A stretch of 41,137 nucleotides of DNA from Gemmatimonadota bacterium (GTDB lineage: Bacteria; Gemmatimonadota; Gemmatimonadetes; Longimicrobiales; Gaopeijiaceae), in assembly GCA_022823225.1 (NCBI GenBank), contig JAJDXM010000047.1, forward strand, positions 1-41,137, written 5' to 3'. Position numbers and translations under genes: made by a program. Shown here one piece after another: positions 1 through 15,042 of this stretch; within the stretch, counting starts at the first letter, position 1, and the number at the start of each line of letters is the position of its first letter. A model generated the notes under the pieces. It searched no databases and was not told the DNA's origin. It saw only the letters and a program-made list of their open reading frames with translations.

Positions 1-15
1 GCCTGACCCATCCAT
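1..15 (-). CDS. Possible start of next ssp operon gene (sspD-like), partial
   Basis: After the sspC-like stop codon at 45-43 the minus strand reads a good ribosome binding site (GAAGGGG), eight bases, then ATG at 15-13, with the frame open to the window edge. In SspABCD operons the next gene encodes SspD, a PAPS-reductase/ATP-pyrophosphatase-like enzyme that activates the DNA sulfur acceptor. Only five codons are visible, so the identity rests on position alone. An alternative GTG at 39-37 lies in the same open frame. Confidence 0.3.
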
Positions 16-42
16 GTCCAGCACCCCTTCAAGGATCACCGC

Positions 43-2016
43 TCAACCCGGACGACTTGCCTCGGAATCGGTGGACGCCTTGGCCCGGAACAGCCGGACG
101 GCTTCGCCCGGAATCGGTGGACAACTTCGTCGGAATAGGCAGGCCTGCGCCAACCGCTCGCTGACTTCCTGCCGGGCCACCCAATCGTCTCCAACGACCG
201 GATCGTCCAATACCGCCCCTACCGCAGCGCACTCCCGGGCTGCGTCGTCCAGCGCAGCCACGTCTGTTGGCATCGCGGCGACCACCGGCTTGGCTGCCTT
301 GGACGATTTCGCCAGAATTGGCGGATTGTCAGGATCGACCACCATGAGAACTTCGCCATCATAGTCGGAAAACGGATCGAGTGGCTCGACCAGCTCCCCA
401 CCTGCCACGTACCTCCGAGCGAAGACCCTCAGTAGATCGTGTTTCGCACTGTGCCGGGCAGCAATCACCGGCTTGGGATCGTCGATGTCCGACAGTATCC
501 CAACGAGCGAGCGTTGCTGCATCTCTCCCCGGGCGCGGGAAAGCCGTCGGGGGATATCGACATCGGTGCCCTGCCAGATTCGGTACTCGTCCGAGAAGTC
601 GCGATAGGTGACGACACCCGCTGTCTCCAGATCGGGGAGAAGGTCCGGCGCGTGAGGGTCGATCTCGGCGAGCAAGCGCCTCGACGCTCGCACCACACCG
701 GTCGTCGACACGAGGTTCAAGACGGCGACGGACTTTGCTAACCGTCTCTGGGCCGGGGTGAGGTTCGGGGCATCACGTAAACGAGTCGCGATCTCGGTCC
801 AGCGGCCTTGGTCCACTGGCACGCCCGCCATCGTTCCGCTTGCGACGAAATAGTCGTAGACACCGGCGAGTCCTACGGAAGGAAGCTCACCCTCCGGTAG
901 CAACACGGCGGCATCAAGGTAGGAGGCGGCGCTGGCTGGATCCGCGCTCGTGAGGAAGGAAAACAACGTCCGTTCGTGCTGCCCGTACCGGTTACACAGC
1001 TCAGGCAGCACGGATGCGGCCAAGGGATGAAGTGGGTAGCAGGACGCCACGACATCGGGGTCGGCCAGTTCCGCGATTCCTAGAGAGCGCATTGTCGAGG
1101 CTTGCTGGGTCGCCCACCGATCGATGCGACCACGGATGTTACGGTCCGCCCGAAACACGGTGCCGATGAACGCCCGTGTCTGGCTCGCAGATTCGACGTA
1201 GGCGACGGTCTCGAAGCGCCCTTGTACTTTCGCCCACTCGCGACGCTGTGGGCCGTCCGTGTGAGACAGATAATCCTCGAAGGAAAGGTGCTGAAGCGTC
1301 ATCAGGAAGATGGGAAGACCTGAGCCCTGTCCGGCTTCGGCGAGCTGCTGAAGCAGATACGGATCTCCGTCGCTGCTGTCGGCGATCGCTTCGAGGTTCT
1401 TTCCGAATTCGTCGATCACCAAGAAAAGGGGCCGATCTTTCGCTAGGCACGTTGCAACCTCTATCAGTGCCCCTGGGGATGGGCCGGTCCGGCGTGGATC
1501 CTGGCTATCGGCATCGCCGATGGCCGCTTTGAGCGCTCCCGCCGCCGGGAATTGGCGGGTGGACGGAATCCTGCCGAATGCTCCCAAGACGGCGCTGTGG
1601 AGGGCTCGCAGAATGGTGCGATTCAGTGGTTCACGAGCGGCGGTTACGAGACCCCGACGGAACCCGGTTTCTTGGGTATCGTGATTGTCGTGAGCGGCCC
1701 ATGCCAAGTCCGCCATGTCGGAGTTTGCCGCTTCAAGTAGCGCGATCGCTAGGTCCCTAGTTGCCCCGTCAGGCCCAAGCAGCGCGTCCAATAGAAGGGC
1801 CAGTGACGACTTTCCAGACCCGTAAGGACCGGTTAGAGACCACGCCCCCCCTGCTTGCTGGCTGGAAGCAACAGTGAGCATCCGCTCGACGGCTTCGAGC
1901 GCACGAGAGGTGACAATGTAGCCCTCAAGTGGCTGGGCACGTCCAGCATCGCGCTCAAGGTTTGCGGACTTGGCGAAGCGCGGCTGAATCTGGATGTGGT
2001 CCGCTAGTGTGGGCAT
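43..2016 (-). CDS. sspC: P-loop ATPase of an Ssp-type DNA phosphorothioation operon (SspC-like)
   Basis: This 657-residue protein has a clear Walker A motif, GPYGSGKSS, at residues 63-71, and a Walker B-like segment LFLVIDEFGKN at 197-207. The remainder is largely helical with no membrane segment. Its start ATG lies one base after the stop of the DUF4007 gene (TAGaATG), so the two are translationally coupled. In SspABCD systems the ATPase SspC works with the nickase SspB and the PAPS-reductase-like SspD to put sulfur into one DNA strand at a specific motif. I assign the gene from the operon order (cysteine desulfurase, DUF4007, ATPase), not from a family-specific motif. The last 25 codons overlap an imperfect 29-bp direct repeat offset by 46 bp, so the extreme C-terminus may be altered relative to homologues. 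Another P-loop defence ATPase remains possible. Confidence 0.7.
   Translation of the reverse strand: MPTLADHIQIQPRFAKSANLERDAGRAQPLEGYIVTSRALEAVERMLTVASSQQAGGAWSLTGPYGSGKSSLALLLDALLGPDGATRDLAIALLEAANSDMADLAWAAHDNHDTQETGFRRGLVTAAREPLNRTILRALHSAVLGAFGRIPSTRQFPAAGALKAAIGDADSQDPRRTGPSPGALIEVATCLAKDRPLFLVIDEFGKNLEAIADSSDGDPYLLQQLAEAGQGSGLPIFLMTLQHLSFEDYLSHTDGPQRREWAKVQGRFETVAYVESASQTRAFIGTVFRADRNIRGRIDRWATQQASTMRSLGIAELADPDVVASCYPLHPLAASVLPELCNRYGQHERTLFSFLTSADPASAASYLDAAVLLPEGELPSVGLAGVYDYFVASGTMAGVPVDQGRWTEIATRLRDAPNLTPAQRRLAKSVAVLNLVSTTGVVRASRRLLAEIDPHAPDLLPDLETAGVVTYRDFSDEYRIWQGTDVDIPRRLSRARGEMQQRSLVGILSDIDDPKPVIAARHSAKHDLLRVFARRYVAGGELVEPLDPFSDYDGEVLMVVDPDNPPILAKSSKAAKPVVAAMPTDVAALDDAARECAAVGAVLDDPVVGDDWVARQEVSERLAQACLFRRSCPPIPGEAVRLFRAKASTDSEASRPG
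48..122. repeat. Imperfect 29-bp direct repeat, 46-bp offset, at 3' end of sspC-like gene
   Basis: Copies at 48-76 and 94-122 share the block CGGAATCGGTGGAC and flanking CCGGACG. The 46-bp offset is not a multiple of three, so a duplication here would have changed the reading frame of the ATPase C-terminus. Deleting one copy in thought gives a C-terminus that ends in another frame a few bases further on. Confidence 0.6.
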
Positions 2017-2017
2017 T

Positions 2018-3010
2018 CTATGGGCCTCCGACTGCGGCGAGGGCCAGTTGGTCGGATTCCTTCGGTTCTGAGGTGCTTGAGGTCGTCACACCGTAGTAGT
2101 CATCGAGGATCTTCCGCCCTAGCGCTTCCCGATCTTCGGACCAAGCGAGTTGGATGCCGCCCGTTGCCGTAACTAGGTCCAATCCGGGGGTCTTTCGAAC
2201 CGCCTTCTCCAGCGCGGCTAGCATTTCGGACTCGCCAAGTTTGAATGCTCTGCCGGGCGAGCCCGGAGCCAACGTGATTCGGCTGAGGGTAACGGTGTTT
2301 CCACCGATCTCGACGCGGTCGACGTAGTCCAACGTCGAATAGGCCAGGATCGCCGGGGGAAGGGTGATTTTAGTTCCCAAGGAGAACCGGTATCGGCCTG
2401 TACTGTTAGGGCGGCTAATCAGACTGAGTTCCCGGAGCGGACAATCGAGGATATCGTCGATCGGCACTCGTCCTCGTCGTTCGGGGGGCGCATACGTGCG
2501 CAACAACGCGCCGACATCTTTCTTGACGGAGGAAGGGTGGGGTCTTCGCCATTCGGCGGCGAGGTCGAGCTGGGTATCGACCGTGGCGTAGAGATCATCC
2601 TCTGTGAACTCCACCGCGTGGAAGTCGTTGAATGCGAGCCACCAGATGGGCACGTGACACGGCGGAGCAAGCAACAACCAATGGAGCAGCCAGAGGGTGC
2701 CGGGATCTTCCATGTACGGGTCCCATCCCCCCTTACCGAACAGTGCTTCGCCCAACGGCGTCGTCATTAGATCTGGGGCCCTGCGGTTGGCAGAGTCCGG
2801 ATCGGTCGCAATCAGCTTGGCAGCCAATCCCCAGAAGCGTATCGCGCGAACCATGTTCTTGCCGACGCCGATTCGGACCGGAGCGTCGTCTCCGAAGAAC
2901 ACCCGAGGATCCGCTGCCACATGGGCGTGTGCTTTCCGGAACCAGCCGTAGCGAGGGTGGAATGTCTCGTGTCGGGCGAACATCGGAACTGCGGCATCGA
3001 CTAACCTCAT
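2018..3010 (-). CDS. sspB: DUF4007 protein (SspB-like)
   Basis: The N-terminus carries the pattern FARHETFHPRYGWFRKA, close to the (G/R)HETFxxRYGWxxKA signature of DUF4007 proteins, followed by a long uncharacterised domain; the protein is 330 residues. DUF4007 proteins occur in DNA phosphorothioation cassettes, where SspB is reported as a DNA-nicking component; I recall this from the family literature and cannot test it here. I chose the ATG at 3010 over an upstream ATG at 3043 because it starts one base after the sspA-like stop (TAGaATG), is preceded by GGGGAAGAGG, and puts the conserved motif near the start. Tight coupling on both sides places it in one transcript with the desulfurase and ATPase. 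Confidence 0.75.
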   Translation of the reverse strand: MRLVDAAVPMFARHETFHPRYGWFRKAHAHVAADPRVFFGDDAPVRIGVGKNMVRAIRFWGLAAKLIATDPDSANRRAPDLMTTPLGEALFGKGGWDPYMEDPGTLWLLHWLLLAPPCHVPIWWLAFNDFHAVEFTEDDLYATVDTQLDLAAEWRRPHPSSVKKDVGALLRTYAPPERRGRVPIDDILDCPLRELSLISRPNSTGRYRFSLGTKITLPPAILAYSTLDYVDRVEIGGNTVTLSRITLAPGSPGRAFKLGESEMLAALEKAVRKTPGLDLVTATGGIQLAWSEDREALGRKILDDYYGVTTSSTSEPKESDQLALAAVGGP

Positions 3011-3011
3011 T

Positions 3012-4271
3012 CTACGCCTCTTCCCCTGAAAGGCTGCGAACACGCGTTACCGCCTGAACCGTACGGTCCACGGCCAGGTCGATCTCTTCCCGCGTGGTGA
3101 AGCGTCCCAAGCTGAATCTCACGCCCTCGAACGCTGCCTCGCGGGACAGGCCCATCGCCAACAGCACGTCAGAAGGCTCGATCGACCCTGAACTACAGGC
3201 ACTGCCAGTCGACGCGGCGACCGGGTCCATGTTCACGACTACAGCGTCAGCGTCAGCGCCCTGGAACCGGAGATTCGCCGTGTTGGGGAGCCGGCAGGTA
3301 GCATCCCCAATCTCCGACACGTCGGGTAATCTCGCCTTCAGCGCCCGGGTCAGACGATCGCGGAGTTGGCTTACGCGTTGAGATTCCGTTGCGCGCTCCG
3401 TGGAGGCAATAGCAGCTGCCGCGCCCAGCCCAACGATCCCGGCGACGTTCAGCGAACCGGACCGAAGGCCCCGTTCATGTCCTCCGCCGTGTATCTGTGG
3501 ACCTAGTCGGCGGAGCGCCTGACTGTTGCCCACCAAAGCTCCGACTCCACCTGGGCCACAGATCTTGTGACCGCTTAGCGAGACGAGATCGATCCCTAGC
3601 TCCTCCATCTTCAGTGGCATCCAACCGACAAACTGAGTGACATCCGAGTGGAGCAGAGCACCGGTGCGGCGCACCAGTTCAGAGACCTCGGCGAGCGGGT
3701 TCATCACCCCAGTCTCGCCGTTCGCGGCAATGACCGAAACCAACAGAACATCCGGGCCGAGGAGTGACTCGAGCTTGACCAGATCCACGAAACCACCGTC
3801 GGTGACCGGAATGATGTCCAGCCGCACCGAGCCACGTTCCTCAAGCCACTCTGCGGTGCGGGCCACAGATGCATGTTCGGCGGCAGACATGAGGATCCGG
3901 TCCCGGCGTGCAGGAGCAGTCTCCACCGCTCCGCGGAGGGCGAGATTGTTAGCCTCGGTGGCGCTGGCAGTGAAGACCACGCCGCTCGGAGAGCCACCGA
4001 CCAACGCCGCGACATGATCACGCGCGTCGTCCACAAGCGCGCCTTGTCGCTGCCCGAATCTGTGAGTCGACGAGGCGTTTCCGGATCGCTCGGTGAGAAC
4101 CGGGACCATGACGCGAGCGACTCGCGGGTCGAGCGGTGCCGAGCCGTTGTAGTCGAGGTAAATCTCTCGTTCAGTGCCTCGCTGCCTCAATCCATATCGC
4201 TTCTCGCTCGGTACCGGAACTTCGTTCAGCATGTGGGCGACTTCGGACTCACTTCGGGTTACGTTCGGCAT
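3012..4271 (-). CDS. sspA: Cysteine desulfurase, DndA/SspA/IscS type
   Basis: This 419-residue PLP enzyme removes sulfur from cysteine as a persulfide. The PLP lysine is K236 in SLSGHKICGPGG, and the persulfide cysteine is C359 in STGSACSSGS. Other class V aminotransferase landmarks are the LDYNGSAPLDP start (39-49), TEANNLALRG (105-114), HSDVTQ (208-213) and the HGGGHERGLRSGS loop (261-273). On its own the protein could serve Fe-S cluster assembly, but the following DUF4007 and ATPase genes point to sulfur donation for DNA phosphorothioation, with SspD as acceptor. It is the first gene of the minus-strand operon. The start at 4271 touches an inverted repeat at 4273-4287 and has no good ribosome binding site; an internal ATG at 4232 is an alternative start. 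Confidence 0.9.
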   Translation of the reverse strand: MPNVTRSESEVAHMLNEVPVPSEKRYGLRQRGTEREIYLDYNGSAPLDPRVARVMVPVLTERSGNASSTHRFGQRQGALVDDARDHVAALVGGSPSGVVFTASATEANNLALRGAVETAPARRDRILMSAAEHASVARTAEWLEERGSVRLDIIPVTDGGFVDLVKLESLLGPDVLLVSVIAANGETGVMNPLAEVSELVRRTGALLHSDVTQFVGWMPLKMEELGIDLVSLSGHKICGPGGVGALVGNSQALRRLGPQIHGGGHERGLRSGSLNVAGIVGLGAAAAIASTERATESQRVSQLRDRLTRALKARLPDVSEIGDATCRLPNTANLRFQGADADAVVVNMDPVAASTGSACSSGSIEPSDVLLAMGLSREAAFEGVRFSLGRFTTREEIDLAVDRTVQAVTRVRSLSGEEA

Positions 4272-4703: not shown

Positions 4704-5603
4704 TCACCCCCCAAACACCTCCTCCCGATGATACTCCAGGAACCGCCGATGCGGCCAGTACATCCTCTCCTCCGGCACCCGTAACCGCCGGTCCCGATTG
4801 ACCAGCCCAAGCACGCTGCTCGGAATCGCGTCCCTCTTCAGCAGCAACCCGTAGTCGTCGTCGATTGAGATGAGCCCGCGGTCGAACATCCAGTGGAAGG
4901 TGGAGCTCAGGGCCACCCCGTTCCGAAGGCTGTCCGGCCCGTTGGCCTTCACGGGCTGGATGTGCGCGGCCTGGGCCTCGGCCCTCCCGCCGCCGTTGAT
5001 GATCCTGAGACCGCTCATCGCGCAGGTGTTGTCGTAGGCCCTCTTGATCCCCGTGGCGAACACCCGGTCGCGGAAGGGTCTGCTCGAGACCGACTCGACG
5101 ATCGGCCGGTCCGCCAACTCCAGACTGGTGTCGTGGCGCGCCCCTTCGCGGATGCCGGGTCGCTTCCGCCGGTCGTCCCCTGCCTCAAATCCGGCCGAGA
5201 GAATCAGACTGTATTCGGCATCCGCCAGACCGCGCACCGACAGGCCGAACCTGCCCTTGTTCGTCGAACCGTCCGCCTTCTGCAGCCCGCTCTCGTAGTA
5301 GAAGTTCCCCTCGCGGAAGGGCACCGCCCGGTCGAATTCGAGATAATCCTTCACGTACGCGTAGTAGTGGTCGTGCCTGTTCGGATCAGGTCCGATGTGC
5401 ACGATCCGGGCCGTCGCGAAGTACGACTGGCGCCCCCCACGGCTCGACAACTCGGCGCTGCTGCGGCGAGGCTCGTAGTAGACGATCCAGTCGCCCAGCG
5501 CGGCCCGTGCGGCTCGGAGATACCTCTTCGGAAAGTGGTATCGATGCTCGGGGAGATCGTCGTACGACGGATCGACCTTCGTGGTCAGAACGGCTTTCGG
5601 CAT
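4704..5603 (-). CDS. HNH endonuclease with N-terminal PUA-like reader candidate
   Basis: The C-terminal third is a restriction-type HNH nuclease: YDNTCAMSG (190-197), H214 in AAHIQPV, N228 in SLRNGVAL and H237 in STFHWMFDRG, the arrangement seen in predicted restriction endonucleases such as COG3440. The first 150 residues have GDWIVYYEPRR, YFATARIVHI and YYAYVKDYLEFDRAVPF, a beta-rich pattern reminiscent of PUA/EVE/ASCH folds that read modified bases or RNA; that fold assignment is inference. The 299-residue length suits a two-domain modification-dependent restriction enzyme. It lies upstream of, and in the same direction as, the phosphorothioation operon, with the 102-residue ORF between. 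A phosphorothioate-cutting enzyme would be self-toxic beside an active Ssp system, so it more likely reads another modification or is held off by the sulfur mark. Confidence 0.8.
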   Translation of the reverse strand: MPKAVLTTKVDPSYDDLPEHRYHFPKRYLRAARAALGDWIVYYEPRRSSAELSSRGGRQSYFATARIVHIGPDPNRHDHYYAYVKDYLEFDRAVPFREGNFYYESGLQKADGSTNKGRFGLSVRGLADAEYSLILSAGFEAGDDRRKRPGIREGARHDTSLELADRPIVESVSSRPFRDRVFATGIKRAYDNTCAMSGLRIINGGGRAEAQAAHIQPVKANGPDSLRNGVALSSTFHWMFDRGLISIDDDYGLLLKRDAIPSSVLGLVNRDRRLRVPEERMYWPHRRFLEYHREEVFGG

Positions 5604-6604: not shown

Positions 6605-7614
6605 ATGGACGGACGTGAAACGCCGGATCCGGCCGGGAATGGATGCGGCTTCCGGTTGCTCGCCAGCTTGCCACGGTGGCCTATCGGCGCCGGCACCGCA
6701 TCCAGCGTGGACGCCTGCTCACGCCTTGCGAACCCACCAACTCAACCCGAAGCCATCGGTTCGGTCCTTGCGGCCCGGGGGTTTCCGTCTCCGGACGTGC
6801 AGGCCTTCATCCGGCAGTATCTCGACATGGTCGGGAGGTGGTTTCGTCCCGGCAGCGAGAGCTTCAGGGCGCTTCTCGACGACCATCGCGCCATCCTGCA
6901 TGAGCTGCGCCGCGTCCTGGAGAAGGACGGCGACGGCGGCGTCCACGCGATGGTGTCGGCAGACCGGACGGAGTACCGCGACGCGCTCGCCAGGCTGGTG
7001 AGGGAGTCCAGGCACGATCCGAAGCAGCTGCGGGCTCTGGTGGCAAATCGACTGAAGAGCCGGGGCATCGCGCCGCAGTATTCCAACAATCCCTCGCGGA
7101 CCGTCTACTGGCTGTATTGGACGGACACTACCCTGGGTGACGCCGTGAAGCGCCTGGGCGGCCATCGTGGCTCCCTTTGCTGGGACATCGGATTCACACA
7201 CCACGGTGTCGAGATGGATTTCAACTTCTACGCCGAGAGCAGCGAGGAGCGTTCCTTCGTGGATCGGCTGAAGAGCTTCATGGAGAAGACGCCGATCAAC
7301 CGACGGAAACCGGACGAGTACGCCGTCAGGGACAAGGGATACGGCTGGGAAGGGGTCGTTTTAGACGATCCAGTCGCCCATCCCGGCCCCGACGCGCGCG
7401 CGCCCGCGAGTCAGATTACGCGATCGGCGTGGACCTTGAGTTCAGGTCGGACCCGTACACTGCCGAGCGGGTCAAGAAGGACTCGCAGACCTTCCCGTCG
7501 AGCGAGCTTCATTGCGGGTACGAAGTCGGACGCTCAGTCATGGATCCCCCAGAGAGAATTCGGCCCCTAAACCACGTGGGGCCGAAGCCCGCTTGGATCA
7601 TGGACGTGGCATAG
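6605..7614 (+). pseudogene. Hypothetical gene frameshifted at a CG-dinucleotide tract
   Basis: One frame runs from 6605 to about 7392 and encodes a plausible soluble protein (helical middle, then TVYWLYWTDTTLGDAV, WDIGFTHHGVEMDFNFYAESSEE, GYGWEGVVLDD). The continuing protein-like sequence (ESDYAIGVDLEFRSDPYTAERV) is in a different frame that ends at 7614. The switch falls on CGCGCGCGCG at 7393-7402. Removing one CG unit joins both halves into a 335-residue protein. The first 60 residues look unconserved, so the real start may be downstream. I do not recognise the family. It may be a true pseudogene, a phase-variable gene, or a sequencing or assembly error in the tract. Confidence 0.55.
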
Positions 7615-7682
7615 AGGCCAGTTTCGCTGTGGACCTACATTGGCATGGATGGATGCCTTGCATCAAGGATGGAATGCCGACC

Positions 7683-8519
7683 TTACACCCCGCGCTCCCG
7701 CACCCTCTCCAGGAACTCCTCGCGCGTGTCACAGTCGAGAATCGCGGCTGCGACCAGGGCGATTCGGTCACGGCCAGGGCTTCCCAGGATCGACCGCCGC
7801 ACTTCGTCCGCGGTACGCTCTCCAAACTTCCGCCCGATCTGCTGCACCAGCACCGCCACCTGCCCCTGCTCAATCCCTTGCTCTCGGCCCTCCCGCCGTC
7901 CCTGCCTATGCCCCTCCCGGCGTCCCTCCTCGCGCCCCTCCTGCCTGATGTCGTCCAGGCTGCGCTGGAATTCGGTCACCACGGTGCTCATCGTCATCGC
8001 CTCCTCCAATTGTCGGTTGGAAAACCCCTTCGAACGTAACATCGCCTTCACCGACCGGGCCATGAACCGGTCGAAGTCCTCGTCTTCGCAGGCTTCGACA
8101 AGCGGCAGCAGCACTGCGAGCGCCGCCCGCATCTGCGCAGCAGTCGTCACGCCGGAAAGCCCGAGCACGAGCCGTGGCAGATCTTCGGGACCGGATGGCC
8201 GTGCGCCGGGTGGCATCCGGCCCACCACCCGGTAGGTGTCTGGCGCAGAATCCCGGAAGAGTTCGCTCAGGCGGGTTGCAGCGTTCCAACGCCTGTCTCC
8301 GTGGTGGAGTACCAGGGCTACCAAGGCCAGTTCCCGGTCGCCACGCCCGAGTTCCTTGTCGCGCTCGATCAGGCTTTGGCCGGCGAGACAGCTGTAGACC
8401 GTCGTCCTGAGAGCCATATGCCGCTCCGGCCGGCCCTGGAATTCCAGCAGGAGCACCAGGTCCGTGGACCCATCAGTGGTGCGGACCCGCCAGACCATGT
8501 CGGGGTAGCGCCGTCGCAT
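7683..8519 (-). pseudogene. Rpn-family PD-(D/E)XK nuclease, N-terminally truncated (copy 1)
   Basis: The frame encodes an Rpn/transposase-like nuclease (PDDEXK_2): MVWRVRT, LVLLLEFQGRPERHMALR with the catalytic E/Q-type strand, and a C-terminal charged coiled coil (QEGREEGRREGHRQGRREG...) ending in DTREEFLERV. Homology-like sequence continues upstream of the first ATG (DYRTLQPLPTELIDEQ) to a stop at 8595-8597, without a start codon. The usual N-terminal HDxxYKxLF region is missing, so the gene is probably cut by a rearrangement; the flanking 8650-8841 DNA belongs to another gene family. Rpn proteins are DNA nucleases that promote recombination. A near-identical but shorter copy lies at 12678-12984. 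Confidence 0.7.
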
Positions 8520-8649
8520 CTGCTCGTCGATCAGTTCGGTAGGTAGCGGCTGCAGTGTCCGATAGTCGATGCTCCACTGCCCACGCCTCCAGCGTCACGA
8601 GTCGCCGAAAGGCCGCGCGCCCGCGACAACTCCTGCTCGAACGGTGGCG

Positions 8650-8841
8650 TCCCCCCCGGCCACTGATGCAGGCCGGCAGCCGCGCGCCGCGCTTGTGGGG
8701 GACCATGTACCGATCGAACATGGTGACCGTGAACGCGGTTTCGCCATGCGAAGGGTAATCCTGCTCCCTCGGCGTGAGTCGGTCGAAGCGGACGCGGAAG
8801 AAGCGCCGCGAGCTGGGGCAGTTAGGGACAAGTACGGCCAT
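8650..8841 (-). pseudogene. Fragment of a pRiA4b ORF-3 family gene
   Basis: The minus strand encodes VPHKRGARLPACISGRGG, which matches LPYKRGSRLPACISGRRR in the intact gene at 14467-15042; the shared DNA block begins CACTGATGCAGGCCGGCAGC (from 8659). Upstream residues (DYPSHGETAFTVTMF) may be a diverged part of the same domain. Homology stops where the truncated Rpn frame begins, so this is a gene scrap brought next to Rpn copy 1. Confidence 0.55.
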
Positions 8842-8897
8842 AACCCCAACTAACCGTCCCTAACTCTGTCAAACCGACGGACCAGGATCTAATCCCC

Positions 8898-9491
8898 TCA
8901 CCCAAACGTCCCCCGGAGCGCCGTGTTGACGGCTTCGACGCTGAACGCGTCCGGGTCGAAGTCCGGGTCGATCCACTCCGCGACCTGTTCGTATTCCTCG
9001 TGGTCCGGGTTGGCGAGGATGGTGAGCATGTGCCGGAACCGCCAGACGCCCCCGGAATCCTCGGGCGGACATCGACCTCTTCCCGAGAGGCACACCGGCA
9101 ACCGAACCGAGGGATCGCGGAGCAGGATCTTCTGCAGCGTGATTCGGTGGTGCCACTTGTCGCCGAAGTCGTATTGGTACTCGATCCAGTCCTTCGCCCG
9201 GGTCAGGAGCTGGTCGATCCGATACTTCCGCCCGTCGAGAAAGCCGGGCCGTCCGTCTGGACCCACGTCGTCCTGCCAGGGGTTGGGAAGGGTGAACCGG
9301 CGGTTGCCCTTGACGAACATGTGGAGGTGACAGTCGTCCCAGCCCATTGCGAGCTGCAGGGCATCGTGCAACCGGGAGAGCCTCATCGAGGGCGAGACGA
9401 GCAAGCGGCGCCAGATCGGAGGCTTCGCTCCCCTCAGGGCGACTCTGAGCTGGTAGGTGGTGCCGGGGGGCTGCGCATATCGGGGCGTCAT
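8898..9491 (-). CDS. Plasmid pRiA4b ORF-3 family protein
   Basis: This 197-residue protein has the family pattern: TYQLRVALRGAKPPIWRRLLV (11-31), LSRLHDALQLAMGWDDCHLHMF, a KYRI..LL segment, IEYQYDFGDKWHHRITLQK, and CLSGRGRCPPEDSGGVWRF. These are also called IS1096 passenger-like proteins; their biochemical role is unknown. I chose ATG 9491, 11 bases after the helicase stop on the same strand, because the family begins just before the YQLR strand; the frame is open much further upstream, but that part reads as antisense of the helicase end. It probably shares a transcript with the helicase. A second intact member is at 14467-15042 and a fragment at 8650-8841. Confidence 0.85.
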   Translation of the reverse strand: MTPRYAQPPGTTYQLRVALRGAKPPIWRRLLVSPSMRLSRLHDALQLAMGWDDCHLHMFVKGNRRFTLPNPWQDDVGPDGRPGFLDGRKYRIDQLLTRAKDWIEYQYDFGDKWHHRITLQKILLRDPSVRLPVCLSGRGRCPPEDSGGVWRFRHMLTILANPDHEEYEQVAEWIDPDFDPDAFSVEAVNTALRGTFG

Positions 9492-9502
9492 GGGTTCTAA
9501 CT

Positions 9503-11374
9503 CTAACCGAACCCCATCTCCCCCAGAAACTGCGACGGCCCCCTCACATACCCGAAGTACTCCCGCGCCCGCGTCAACGTCAGCGTCTCGCGCGCCCGCG
9601 TCATCGCCACGAAACAGCTCCGCCGCTCCGCCTCCACCGCTCCGCTCCCCGGCCCCTGCCGGAGCGCCCGCTGCGACGGGAACACCTCCTGGGCCATCCC
9701 GATCAGGTAGACATGCCTGAACTCCGCGCCCCTGGCCCGGCGCAGGGTCATGCACTGGACCGCTTCAGGCCTCGGAGGCGGGGTCTTCGGCGACCCATCG
9801 AAATGCCTCAAGTAGGTGTTCAGCGTGATCCCGGACCCGCGCTTCGCGACGATGTCCCGGTGCAGGTCCCTCCATGTCCGCACTTCCTCCCACGTCAACA
9901 GGTCGGGCTCGCGGGGTCCCGGGGACCACCATCCCTCACCCACAACCCAATCGACTAAGCTCCAGAAGTCCAGGCGGTCCACCAGATCGGTCCGGATGCA
10001 CTGCAGCACACTCCCTGCCTCCCCCGCGTCGGCTTCGGCCACATCGACCCAGGCCCGCAGGAAATCTCCGCCGACCAGCGCGGCCGCGGCCCCTACCGCA
10101 TGCGGCTCGATCACCACCCCCGTGAGGCGTTCCCACTCCCGGCAGATTCGTCGCAATACGACCCTGTCATGCCGCGAGTTGGCCAACCTCAGCGCCTCGG
10201 CCAGAACCCCGAGCACCGGGGCGTCGAAATCCCGCCTGTTCGCCGGCACGGATACCTCGTGGCCGACACTGCGCAGCCCGGCCGCGGCGCGAAGGACAAG
10301 GAGGTTGGTTCGTGCCAGGACTACACAAATGGCAGGCGAGAGGTCGCGGGCACGGATGTCGTGTCCGATGCACTCCGCCTCCGACCGGTGTGTGGGATAC
10401 ACCTCATGGCGCACGATGCGCTCGCTCGCGGGCCGTGGTTCGCGACCGGAAACCGTCGTCTCCCTGTCGATCAGCCGGGGACCGCGCGCGATGAGGCGGT
10501 TGGCGTGGCCCAGGATCTCCGGCGGGCAGCGATGGCTCTCGGGCAGTCGAATGGTCTTCACGTCGTAGTCGTTGCGCAGGTCCCGAAGCCTCTTGGGACT
10601 GGCTCCGTTCCACGGGTACGCGACCGGGTCGTCATCCGCCACGACAAACAGGTTGTGGTGCCGGTCTGGAGCGACGAGCCGGAGGAGATCGTACTGGGCC
10701 CTGTTCGTGTCCTGGAATCCGTCGACGCAGATGTGTGACCAGGCCAGCCGGACCACCCGCGCGACCGCCGGCTTCTCCACGAGCAGCCGGTTCGCGAAAT
10801 GAAGCAGGCTGCCGAAGTCCAGCCGGTTGGCGGCGACGAGCGCGTCGCAGTAGCGGTTGAAGAGCGACGGCAGCCATTCCGGGGTGGGTGCCAGGGAAGA
10901 GGAGGGGCCGGCGCCACCGTACGACTCCGAAAACAGCCGGTCGATGAGGTGAAGCAGGCTGGTCCGATCCGAGGGCATACCCGGCCCACCGCCGAACCGA
11001 TTCCGGAGCACCTCTTCGAGAACGGCGACCCGGTCTTCATCCCGGGTGAAGAGCCGGAAGTCCGGCCGGATCCGCAGGTGGCTTCCGTGCTGCCCCAGGA
11101 GATCGATCGCGAACTCGTGTAAGGTGCACAGCTTGGCGCGATCCGCGTACTCCCGGAGGACCTGTCCCACCCTCTCCCGCATCTCGGCTGCGGCCTTGTC
11201 GGTTAACGTCAGCGCCAGCACAGCCGCGTTCTCGTCCTCTTCCAGCAGCCGGGTCACCCGCAGCGTGAGCACGGCAGTCTTGCCGGAACCCGGGCCGGCG
11301 AGGACCAGGGCAGGGCCGCCGTCCCACGCAGCCGCGCGGCGCTGGTTCCGGTTGAGGCTCTCGAAGGCGATCAT
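9503..11374 (-). CDS. UvrD/PcrA-like superfamily 1 helicase with altered motifs II and III
   Basis: The 623-residue protein has most SF1A motifs: NRNQRRAA (Q motif), Walker A AGPGSGKT (26-33), LALTLTDKAAAEMRERV (Ia), TLHEFA, HRCPPEIL, TLRRARGAEFRHVYLIG (motif V) and FVAMTRARETL (motif VI, about 588-598). Motif II reads VDGFQDTN (217-224) where the family has VDEFQDTN, so the catalytic glutamate is glycine at 219. Motif III reads VADDDPVAYPWNGA where GDDDQ..Y is expected; the glutamine is proline at 250. Both changes are one base from consensus. The frame is otherwise intact. The protein likely binds DNA and perhaps ATP but is predicted to hydrolyse poorly. The start at 11374 fits the family N-terminus, though its ribosome binding site is weak. 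Confidence 0.85.
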   Translation of the reverse strand: MIAFESLNRNQRRAAAWDGGPALVLAGPGSGKTAVLTLRVTRLLEEDENAAVLALTLTDKAAAEMRERVGQVLREYADRAKLCTLHEFAIDLLGQHGSHLRIRPDFRLFTRDEDRVAVLEEVLRNRFGGGPGMPSDRTSLLHLIDRLFSESYGGAGPSSSLAPTPEWLPSLFNRYCDALVAANRLDFGSLLHFANRLLVEKPAVARVVRLAWSHICVDGFQDTNRAQYDLLRLVAPDRHHNLFVVADDDPVAYPWNGASPKRLRDLRNDYDVKTIRLPESHRCPPEILGHANRLIARGPRLIDRETTVSGREPRPASERIVRHEVYPTHRSEAECIGHDIRARDLSPAICVVLARTNLLVLRAAAGLRSVGHEVSVPANRRDFDAPVLGVLAEALRLANSRHDRVVLRRICREWERLTGVVIEPHAVGAAAALVGGDFLRAWVDVAEADAGEAGSVLQCIRTDLVDRLDFWSLVDWVVGEGWWSPGPREPDLLTWEEVRTWRDLHRDIVAKRGSGITLNTYLRHFDGSPKTPPPRPEAVQCMTLRRARGAEFRHVYLIGMAQEVFPSQRALRQGPGSGAVEAERRSCFVAMTRARETLTLTRAREYFGYVRGPSQFLGEMGFG

Positions 11375-12677: not shown

Positions 12678-12984
12678 TTACATCCCGCGCTCGCGCACCC
12701 TCTCCAGGAACTCCTCGCGCGTGTCGCAGTCGAGAATCGCGGTTGCGACCAGGGCGATTCGGTCCCGGCCAGGGCTTCCCAGAATCGACCGCCGCACCTC
12801 GTCCGCGGTCCGCTCTCCAAACTTCCGCCCGATCTGATGCACCAGCACCGCCACCTGCCCCTGCTCCCTGATATCGTCCAGGCTGCGCTGGAATTCGGTC
12901 ACCACGGTGCTCATCGTCATCGCCTCCTCCAATTGTCGGTTGGAAAACCCCTTCGAACGTAACATCGCCTTCGCCGACCGGGCC
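12678..12984 (-). pseudogene. Rpn C-terminal remnant, near-duplicate of copy 1 (copy 2)
   Basis: DNA from about 12665 to 12984 repeats 7671-8058 almost base for base. Encoded residues run from AKAMLRSKGFSNRQLEEA to DTREEFLERVRERGM. Relative to copy 1 an in-frame 72-bp block is missing (7872-7943 there), removing 24 residues of the charged coiled coil. Upstream of 12984 the similarity ends abruptly, so the nuclease core is absent. It is most likely non-functional. Confidence 0.75.
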
Positions 12985-13160
12985 TCGCGGACCGGACGGG
13001 GCGTTGACATGGCCGGATGGGCCAAGTTGCCACTGCCCACGCCCCCCCCCGCCTCGCCCGTACAACCATTGGGGCGCTACCGTCTGTCCAGATGGAAAGA
13101 GCCCCCCCCGCACCTCACCACCGCCACTCCCACACCCACCCCCACCCCCCAGGCCACCCC

Positions 13161-14466: not shown

Positions 14467-15042
14467 TCACCAATCCCCCTCCGCCAGCTCCCTGTCCACC
14501 TCCTTCGCGCTGAACCCCTCCGGATCGAAGTCCTCGCCGATCCACTCCTTCACGTGCTCGTGGTCTTCCGCATTCGGATCCGCCAGGCTCTCGAGCATCT
14601 CCTCGTAGCCCCAGACCCCCCCGCAGTCCTCGGGCGGACACCGCCGCCGTCCACTGATGCAGGCCGGCAGCCGCGAGCCGCGCTTGTAGGGGAGGACCTT
14701 CTGCAGCGTGACCTTGTGGTCCCAGGAGTCGCCGAAATCGTAGATGTAGATCAACGAGTCCCCTTCGCGCTCCAGGAGATGGTGGATCCGGTACTTCCTC
14801 TCGTCGAGTTCCCGGGGCGTCCCCGACATCCGGAACTGTTGGCGCCACGGATCGGGCATGCCGTAGCGCTCCTTGCCCTTGCGGAACATGTGGAGGTGAC
14901 GGTCCTCCCACCCCATGACCGCCTGGATGAGATGGTGCAGGGTGTCGAGGTGCATCGACGGCGCCACGAGGACGCGCCGCCAGATCGGCGGCGTTGTATG
15001 CATCAGGACGATGCGGAGCTGGTAGGTGACTCGTTTGGGCAT
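14467..15042 (-). CDS. Plasmid pRiA4b ORF-3 family protein (second copy)
   Basis: The 191-residue product shows the full family pattern: TYQLRIVLMHTTPPIWRRVLV (6-26), MHLDTLHHLIQAVMGWEDRHLHMF, RKYRIHHLL, IYIYDFGDSWDHKVTLQKVL and LPACISGRRRCPPEDCGGVWGYEEML. It aligns end to end with the product of 8898-9491 but is clearly diverged, so this is an older duplication. It is convergent with the beta-propeller gene (16 bases between stops). Its 5' end faces pheA divergently. Function is unknown. Confidence 0.85.
   Translation of the reverse strand: MPKRVTYQLRIVLMHTTPPIWRRVLVAPSMHLDTLHHLIQAVMGWEDRHLHMFRKGKERYGMPDPWRQQFRMSGTPRELDERKYRIHHLLEREGDSLIYIYDFGDSWDHKVTLQKVLPYKRGSRLPACISGRRRCPPEDCGGVWGYEEMLESLADPNAEDHEHVKEWIGEDFDPEGFSAKEVDRELAEGDW

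Follow-up and report, generated by a model that had tools for sequence, protein, structure and literature searches.

Which restriction genes accompany a set of DNA phosphorothioate (PT) modification genes that breaks off at the edge of a contig? The question is raised by contig C26 (JAJDXM010000047.1) of a Gemmatimonadota bacterium (GCA_022823225.1), the left end of which carries sspA, sspB and the beginning of sspC on the minus strand. The hallmark of the SspABCD module is single-stranded PT at 5'-CCA-3'. The window analysed in this study is the entire contig (41,137 bp) from a genome of 4.19 Mb in 97 contigs that is about 96% complete, and therefore the truncation of the operon at the left edge is a real contig end. 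Our results make it highly probable that the genes in the window open a single operon, sspA-sspB-sspC-sspD-X-pbeA-pbeB-pbeC-pbeD, of which they form the first half and which pairs PT modification by Ssp with restriction by Pbe and continues on contig C89.

Gene families were assigned by PADLOC and Pfam profile matches (Table 1). The initial annotation had read three minus-strand open reading frames (ORFs) as a cysteine desulfurase, a DUF4007 protein and a P-loop ATPase in the order SspA-SspB-SspC, with TAGaATG at both internal junctions. All of these points were borne out: the profile matches to the three Ssp families were far beyond chance, the 330-aa protein that was to be searched against DUF4007 matched that family, and a single base separates the stop codon of sspA from the start codon of sspB. 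Both the pyridoxal phosphate-binding lysine motif SGHK (K236) and the catalytic-cysteine loop SACSSG are present in SspA.

What had been taken for the visible start of a fourth gene, sspD, turned out to be the end of an insertion sequence (IS). A gene starting at positions 1-42 was rejected because this stretch is IS sequence: the genome has positions 1-141 at four further sites, including C21:1-141 (100% identity), C34 (96%) and C84 (93%), and the copies on C34 and C84 adjoin IstB genes. In the mechanically called ORF at 43-2016, the last ca. 32 codons are supplied by the IS end. The remainder of sspC was found at C89:171-1762, the first 5 bases of which are the target duplication, and it is preceded by the other IS end; bases 1-165 of C89 are repeated at C55:1-165 with 98% identity. 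The IS end in the window begins TGCCTATTCCGACG, and the opposite end on C89 reads CGTCGGAATCAGCA. The SspC profile (1104 positions) is covered from 2 to 621 in the window and from 618 to 1102 at the left end of C89, the reading frame runs on across the insertion point (...LAQA/QAHL..., the slash marking the point), and in an alignment the intact sspC of the relative G018 (1153 aa) spans this point with a single AGGCC. Profile coverage and the alignment with the relative place the gene in the SspC family as a member split between two contigs with the IS in between. Judging from its multiple copies, the IstB genes near related ends and the short target duplication, we identify the element in sspC at 141/142, the body of which is unassembled, as an IS21-family insertion. 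The feature in the window is genuine and was correctly spotted, and it was misread at the contig edge.

The PAPS-reductase-family gene that had been sought beyond the ATPase adjoins the sspC remainder on C89. It is a match to SspD (PADLOC, 4.8e-107) with an SGGKDS loop, and it is one of two PAPS-reductase matches in the genome, the other being an untyped gene on C23. The gene order on C89 is sspD, X, pbeA, pbeB, pbeC and pbeD, followed by McrB and McrC genes. The restriction partner had been expected outside the window as SspE or SspFGH; its location held, while its identity is instead a PbeABCD-type module with an additional subunit, X. PbeA is an HKD nuclease fused to an SF2 helicase, in which the HKD motif (HPK...GSGN) and the helicase motifs are conserved. 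In the source genome, the PADLOC PbeA model was matched over its full length, split between two frames; two bases present in G018 are missing from pbeA (GCAAG--CGCCC), giving a frameshift at a site that is not a homopolymer run. The PbeB-type ORF of 75 aa occurs in the source genome and G018 and is also conserved in G405 and G154, and PbeC has the invariant C-x-C-G, which is the CxC motif by which PMC10853773 defines its ATPase clade. The AlphaFold model of the G018 ortholog of PbeD (pLDDT 93.8) matched archaeal DndE 7x4e (Z 8.0, root-mean-square deviation 3.7, 112 of 114 residues) and DndE 5wtu (Z 6.4), with relaxosome chains close behind at Z 6.3; middling Z values are common in such structural searches, including those of X described below. 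Foldseek alone gave no match at E ≤ 0.001 for PbeD or X, and the matches to DndE and to the domains of X came from a second look with VIA. Taken together, the profiles and models indicate that the parts on C89 (PbeA, PbeC and PbeD types) are those assigned to PbeABCD by PMC10853773. No Dnd modification genes (DndC/D) were found as the partner of pbe, the module beside it being Ssp. The identity of the ssp-pbe operon is firm.

Table 1 Features of the ssp-pbe operon and of the insertion in sspC. Positions without a contig name refer to the window.
Feature	Location	Strand	Evidence
End of multicopy IS21-family element	1..141	.	Repeats elsewhere in genome, IstB beside related ends
5-bp target-site duplication AGGCC	142..146	-	Second copy C89:171-175; empty site in G018
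sspC, first 625 codons	142..2016	-	PADLOC SspC 1.6e-176; Walker A GPYGSGKS, Walker B LVIDE
sspB, DUF4007 protein, 330 aa	2018..3010	-	PF13182 2.1e-81; PADLOC SspB 3.1e-100
sspA, cysteine desulfurase, 419 aa	3012..4271	-	PADLOC SspA 1e-124 (next best DndA 1e-121); Aminotran_5 1.3e-67
X	C89:2594-4735	sspD, X, pbeA on one strand	Next to sspD
pbeA, two frames	C89:4732-6979	sspD, X, pbeA on one strand	PADLOC PbeA 9e-126 and 7.7e-33 for the frames
pbeB, 75 aa	C89:6973-7200		Between pbeA and pbeC; assignment based solely on position, size and conservation
pbeC	C89: about 7196-9439		PADLOC PbeC 1.2e-47 vs DndD 2.9e-20
pbeD, DndE fold	C89:9439-9927		Structural match of G018 ortholog model

Sigma-70 region 4 was matched by 29 of 30 homologs of X, and the C-terminal domain of the RNA polymerase alpha subunit by 5. 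In the structural model of X, the placement of domains is unsure (pLDDT 85, pTM 0.47); residues 236-312 resembled sigma region 4 (Z about 8.6), residues 429-483 a winged helix (Z about 8.7) and residues 565-668 DNA-binding domains of the B3 type (Z about 8.4), among them that of the restriction enzyme LlaJI.R1 (Z 8.2). These similarities suggest that X is a DNA-recognition subunit, and it could alternatively be a transcriptional regulator. Since X adjoins Pbe also where Ssp is absent (loci L087 and L090-L092), it is to be grouped with the Pbe module and not with Ssp.

We then consider how often the two modules occur together. SspB is found at 15 loci in 14 of the 395 genomes of the phylum, and PbeA, PbeC and PbeD lie beside it at six of these loci: in the source genome, G018, G405, G154 (two loci) and G021 (split between two contigs). 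G405 (JAPPHB01) is catalogued as Gammaproteobacteria, and the other relatives compared appear to be Gemmatimonadota of the BD2-11 clade and its neighbours. Complete consecutive operons are present in G018, G405 and G154 (contig C17), sspA of G018 being cut by the stretch that was fetched; the G018 operon reads sspA-sspB-sspC-sspD-X-pbeA (747 aa)-pbeC-pbeD, with pbeB also present. PbeA was chosen as the probe for a wider scan because the first alignment of X was too diverse. The scan covered 84,980 species genomes, and 80 loci were kept. Two or more of SspB, SspC and SspD were encoded within about 10 kb of PbeA at 54 of the 80 loci, SspD only at 5 and none at 21, some of which are truncated by contig ends; as all five PbeA probes came from Ssp-linked loci, the 54 of 80 is biased towards Ssp and is not an unbiased rate. 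The 80 loci are distributed among Gemmatimonadota, Acidobacteriota, Actinomycetota, Chloroflexota, Poribacteria, Latescibacterota, Planctomycetota, Rhodothermota, Verrucomicrobiota, Binatota, Pseudomonadota and a Bacillus, and cultured hosts with the pairing are Bacillus sp. 2B10, Novosphingobium sp. PC22D, Oleispirillum naphthae and Sphaerisporangium perillae. On starred branches of the PbeA tree, no fewer than six changes of the Ssp label are required, and therefore gains or losses of the pairing have occurred repeatedly. Distance matrices were correlated at 0.95 within modules (SspC-SspD and PbeA-PbeC) and at 0.31-0.40 between them, a level that none of 999 permutations reached. From these correlations, it follows that the modules pair repeatedly and exchange. 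Synonymous divergence (dS) between the source genome and G018 was about 0.5 for pbeA and pbeB and 0.9-1.1 for sspA, sspB, sspC and X, which is consistent with module exchange.

These data bear on whether the Ssp and Pbe blocks might be independent defence systems that share a defence island without being paired functionally. The low correlation between modules compared with that within them, the relatives G001, G017 and G004, which have SspABCD without Pbe nearby, and the occurrence of X-Pbe beside other modification genes (L087) speak for such independence. It is nevertheless improbable, because in G018, G405, G154 and the source genome sspD, X and pbeA directly follow one another on the same strand, with short gaps or overlaps, because the association recurs in many phyla while SspB itself is rare in this one, and because of the repeated changes of the Ssp label on the PbeA tree. 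More improbable still is an ordinary SspABCD system whose SspE or SspFGH partner lies elsewhere in the genome, with Pbe beside it by coincidence. The Ssp pairings described so far are indeed those with SspE or SspFGH (PMC8092258). However, the PADLOC SspE model PDLC02783 had no match in this genome of about 96% completeness, and the sole match to GmrSD_N (DUF262-like) is partial and lies on contig C40; SspE was rejected as the partner on these grounds. By gene content, what follows sspD is Pbe and not SspFGH, no genome-wide search for sspFGH having been made.

Several observations weigh against a single Ssp-Pbe operon that marks and restricts DNA. The coevolution between the modules is weak, and the partnership could be loose. 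The link between C26 and C89 is made by the IS ends, the target duplication, the reading frame and synteny rather than by spanning reads, the frameshift in pbeA might stem from faulty assembly or from strain variation, and PT marking by the operon is deduced from sequence. Besides, the mechanism of Pbe is disputed: no cleavage of viral DNA by Pbe was observed in PMC6459918, while a nuclease action is argued for in PMC10853773.

For the paired operon, we infer the biochemistry, the sequence target and the antiphage effect as described below. SspA would take sulfur from cysteine and hand it to SspD. SspB would recognise and nick the target, and the ring-forming SspC would drive insertion of the sulfur into one strand of the host DNA. 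PbeC and PbeD would scan DNA, and X, with its predicted helix-hairpin-helix, sigma-region-4 helix-turn-helix, winged helix-turn-helix and B3-like domains, might help to recognise target sites or their PT state. PbeA, a helicase that also has an HKD nuclease domain, would act on unmarked DNA, and phage replication would be blocked; PbeB probably has a regulatory role as a small protein.

In the present genome, marking and most of the restriction have probably been lost together through the IS21-family element in sspC and the deletion of 2 nt in pbeA, and this copy is, thus, probably inactive; an intact version of the operon survives in close relatives. The host genome had been expected to carry PT marks, and since sspC is interrupted, the present copy is probably non-marking. 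If Pbe attacks unmarked DNA, a loss of restriction alongside the loss of marking is to be expected. The ratio dN/dS was 0.09-0.21 for the genes measured (sspD left out), the broken ones included, indicating purifying selection and fitting a recent inactivation. The same low values in all genes measured would also agree with a functional system in this genome, in which case the IS and the frameshift would be assembly artefacts or minority variants, as metagenome-assembled genomes can be mis-joined at repeats and only one base-level frameshift is involved. We regard this as unlikely, since both contigs terminate in IS sequence, the 5-bp duplication is exact against the empty site in the relative, the pbeA deletion relative to G018 lies outside a homopolymer run, and low dN/dS is expected after recent inactivation as well. 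The lesions are presumably present in living cells.

Further genes were observed around these loci. McrB- and McrC-like genes (L008 10218-13145) directly follow pbeD. The GC content at third codon positions is about 0.58-0.75 in the operon genes, compared with 0.83-0.89 in the McrBC genes and most other genes of the window, and because of this difference McrBC is probably a separate system. Upstream of sspA, an HNH endonuclease gene lies at 4704-5603 (-), the HNH half of which resembles the NCBIfam 'phosphorothioated DNA-binding restriction endonuclease' at 76.8 bits against a cut-off of 180; close to Ssp, L075 has a relative of its N-terminal half and L071 one of its HNH part. It was rejected as the main partner, the similarity being weak and confined to the HNH domain, and it could be a second PT-linked nuclease. 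DndB-family genes (PF14072) are located next to Ssp/Pbe in G021 (L046 3312-4580, -) and next to Ssp genes in G159 (L071 10636-12048, +). In G001 (L067 6618-10171, -), the place of Pbe after SspABCD is taken by an SF2 helicase and a GHKL-ATPase protein, and this pair is possibly another Ssp partner. In L087 (119-9992) and L099 (65-4912), which lack SspB/SspC, X-Pbe or Pbe adjoins a PAPS-reductase-like gene together with one of the PDC-M33A family, and L087 additionally holds PDC-M33B and a DndA-like gene. If the modular reading holds, we propose that such loci represent a third kind of writer for one reader cassette. Elsewhere in the window, two related Transposase_31/YhgA-like (Rpn-type) ORFs, at 7683-8519 (-) and, shorter, at 12678-13040 (-), share the stretch MLRSKGFSNRQLEEAMTMSTVVTEFQRSLDDIR, and a pRiA4b ORF-3 family gene at 8898-9629 (-) has a start similar (YQLR...PIWRR) to that of the ORF at 14467-15042 (-), about 5 kb away.

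The Ssp-Pbe hybrid with subunit X is a recurrent PT-based defence variant built of known modules. No paper describing the pairing was found in the literature searched for the joint terms, and priority is not certain. The chances appear to us evenly balanced that SspABCD-X-PbeABCD constitutes a third, widespread and as yet undescribed class of defence based on Ssp, whose Pbe module reads the Ssp mark in place of that of Dnd, X being its dedicated reader subunit, and in which Ssp, Dnd and PDC-M33-type PAPS-reductase modules are interchangeable writers. Among 2,678 sspBCD loci surveyed in PMC8092258, SspFGH lay beside 196 (7.3%) and SspE beside 199 (7.4%), with both in 36 strains, so that partner-bearing loci total only about 16%. 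If the third class is real, it would cover some of those sspBCD loci, roughly 85%, that have neither SspE nor SspFGH. PMC6459918 found 320 of 553 PbeAC to be solitary, without dnd, in a count that predates the description of Ssp, and the Pbe/CxC systems described in PMC10853773 accompany Dnd or methylases, Ssp being treated there separately. The recurrent operon joins two gaps, the partnerless sspBCD and the solitary PbeAC. It also bears on how Pbe tells self from non-self, that is, whether one restriction cassette can read both PT types, and the cultured hosts make this question testable.

Compared with SspABCD accompanied by SspE or SspFGH (PMC8092258), the operon has the same four modification genes, with family-level matches from SspA to SspD, whereas its partner is of the Pbe type with X; SspE was looked for in the genome and not found, and SspFGH, with one Walker-A protein and an FtsK-like protein, is unlike the genes after sspD. 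The loci with PAPS-reductase and PDC-M33A/B, such as L087, carry the same X-PbeA-PbeC-PbeD cassette beside a PAPS-reductase-type gene, whereas they lack SspB/SspC and their modification genes belong to PADLOC candidate PDC-M33 families. With DndCDEA-PbeABCD, which occurs in archaea and bacteria (PMC6459918, with a reinterpretation in PMC10853773), the operon shares the restriction module and its order, namely an HKD-SF2 PbeA, a small PbeB, a CxC ABC ATPase PbeC and a DndE-like PbeD. The writers differ: that of Dnd consists of an ABC ATPase and DndE and gives double-stranded PT, whereas the Ssp writer found here consists of an Orc/Cdc6-type ATPase and a DUF4007 protein, is described as giving single-stranded PT, and is followed by X, which lies between the two modules.

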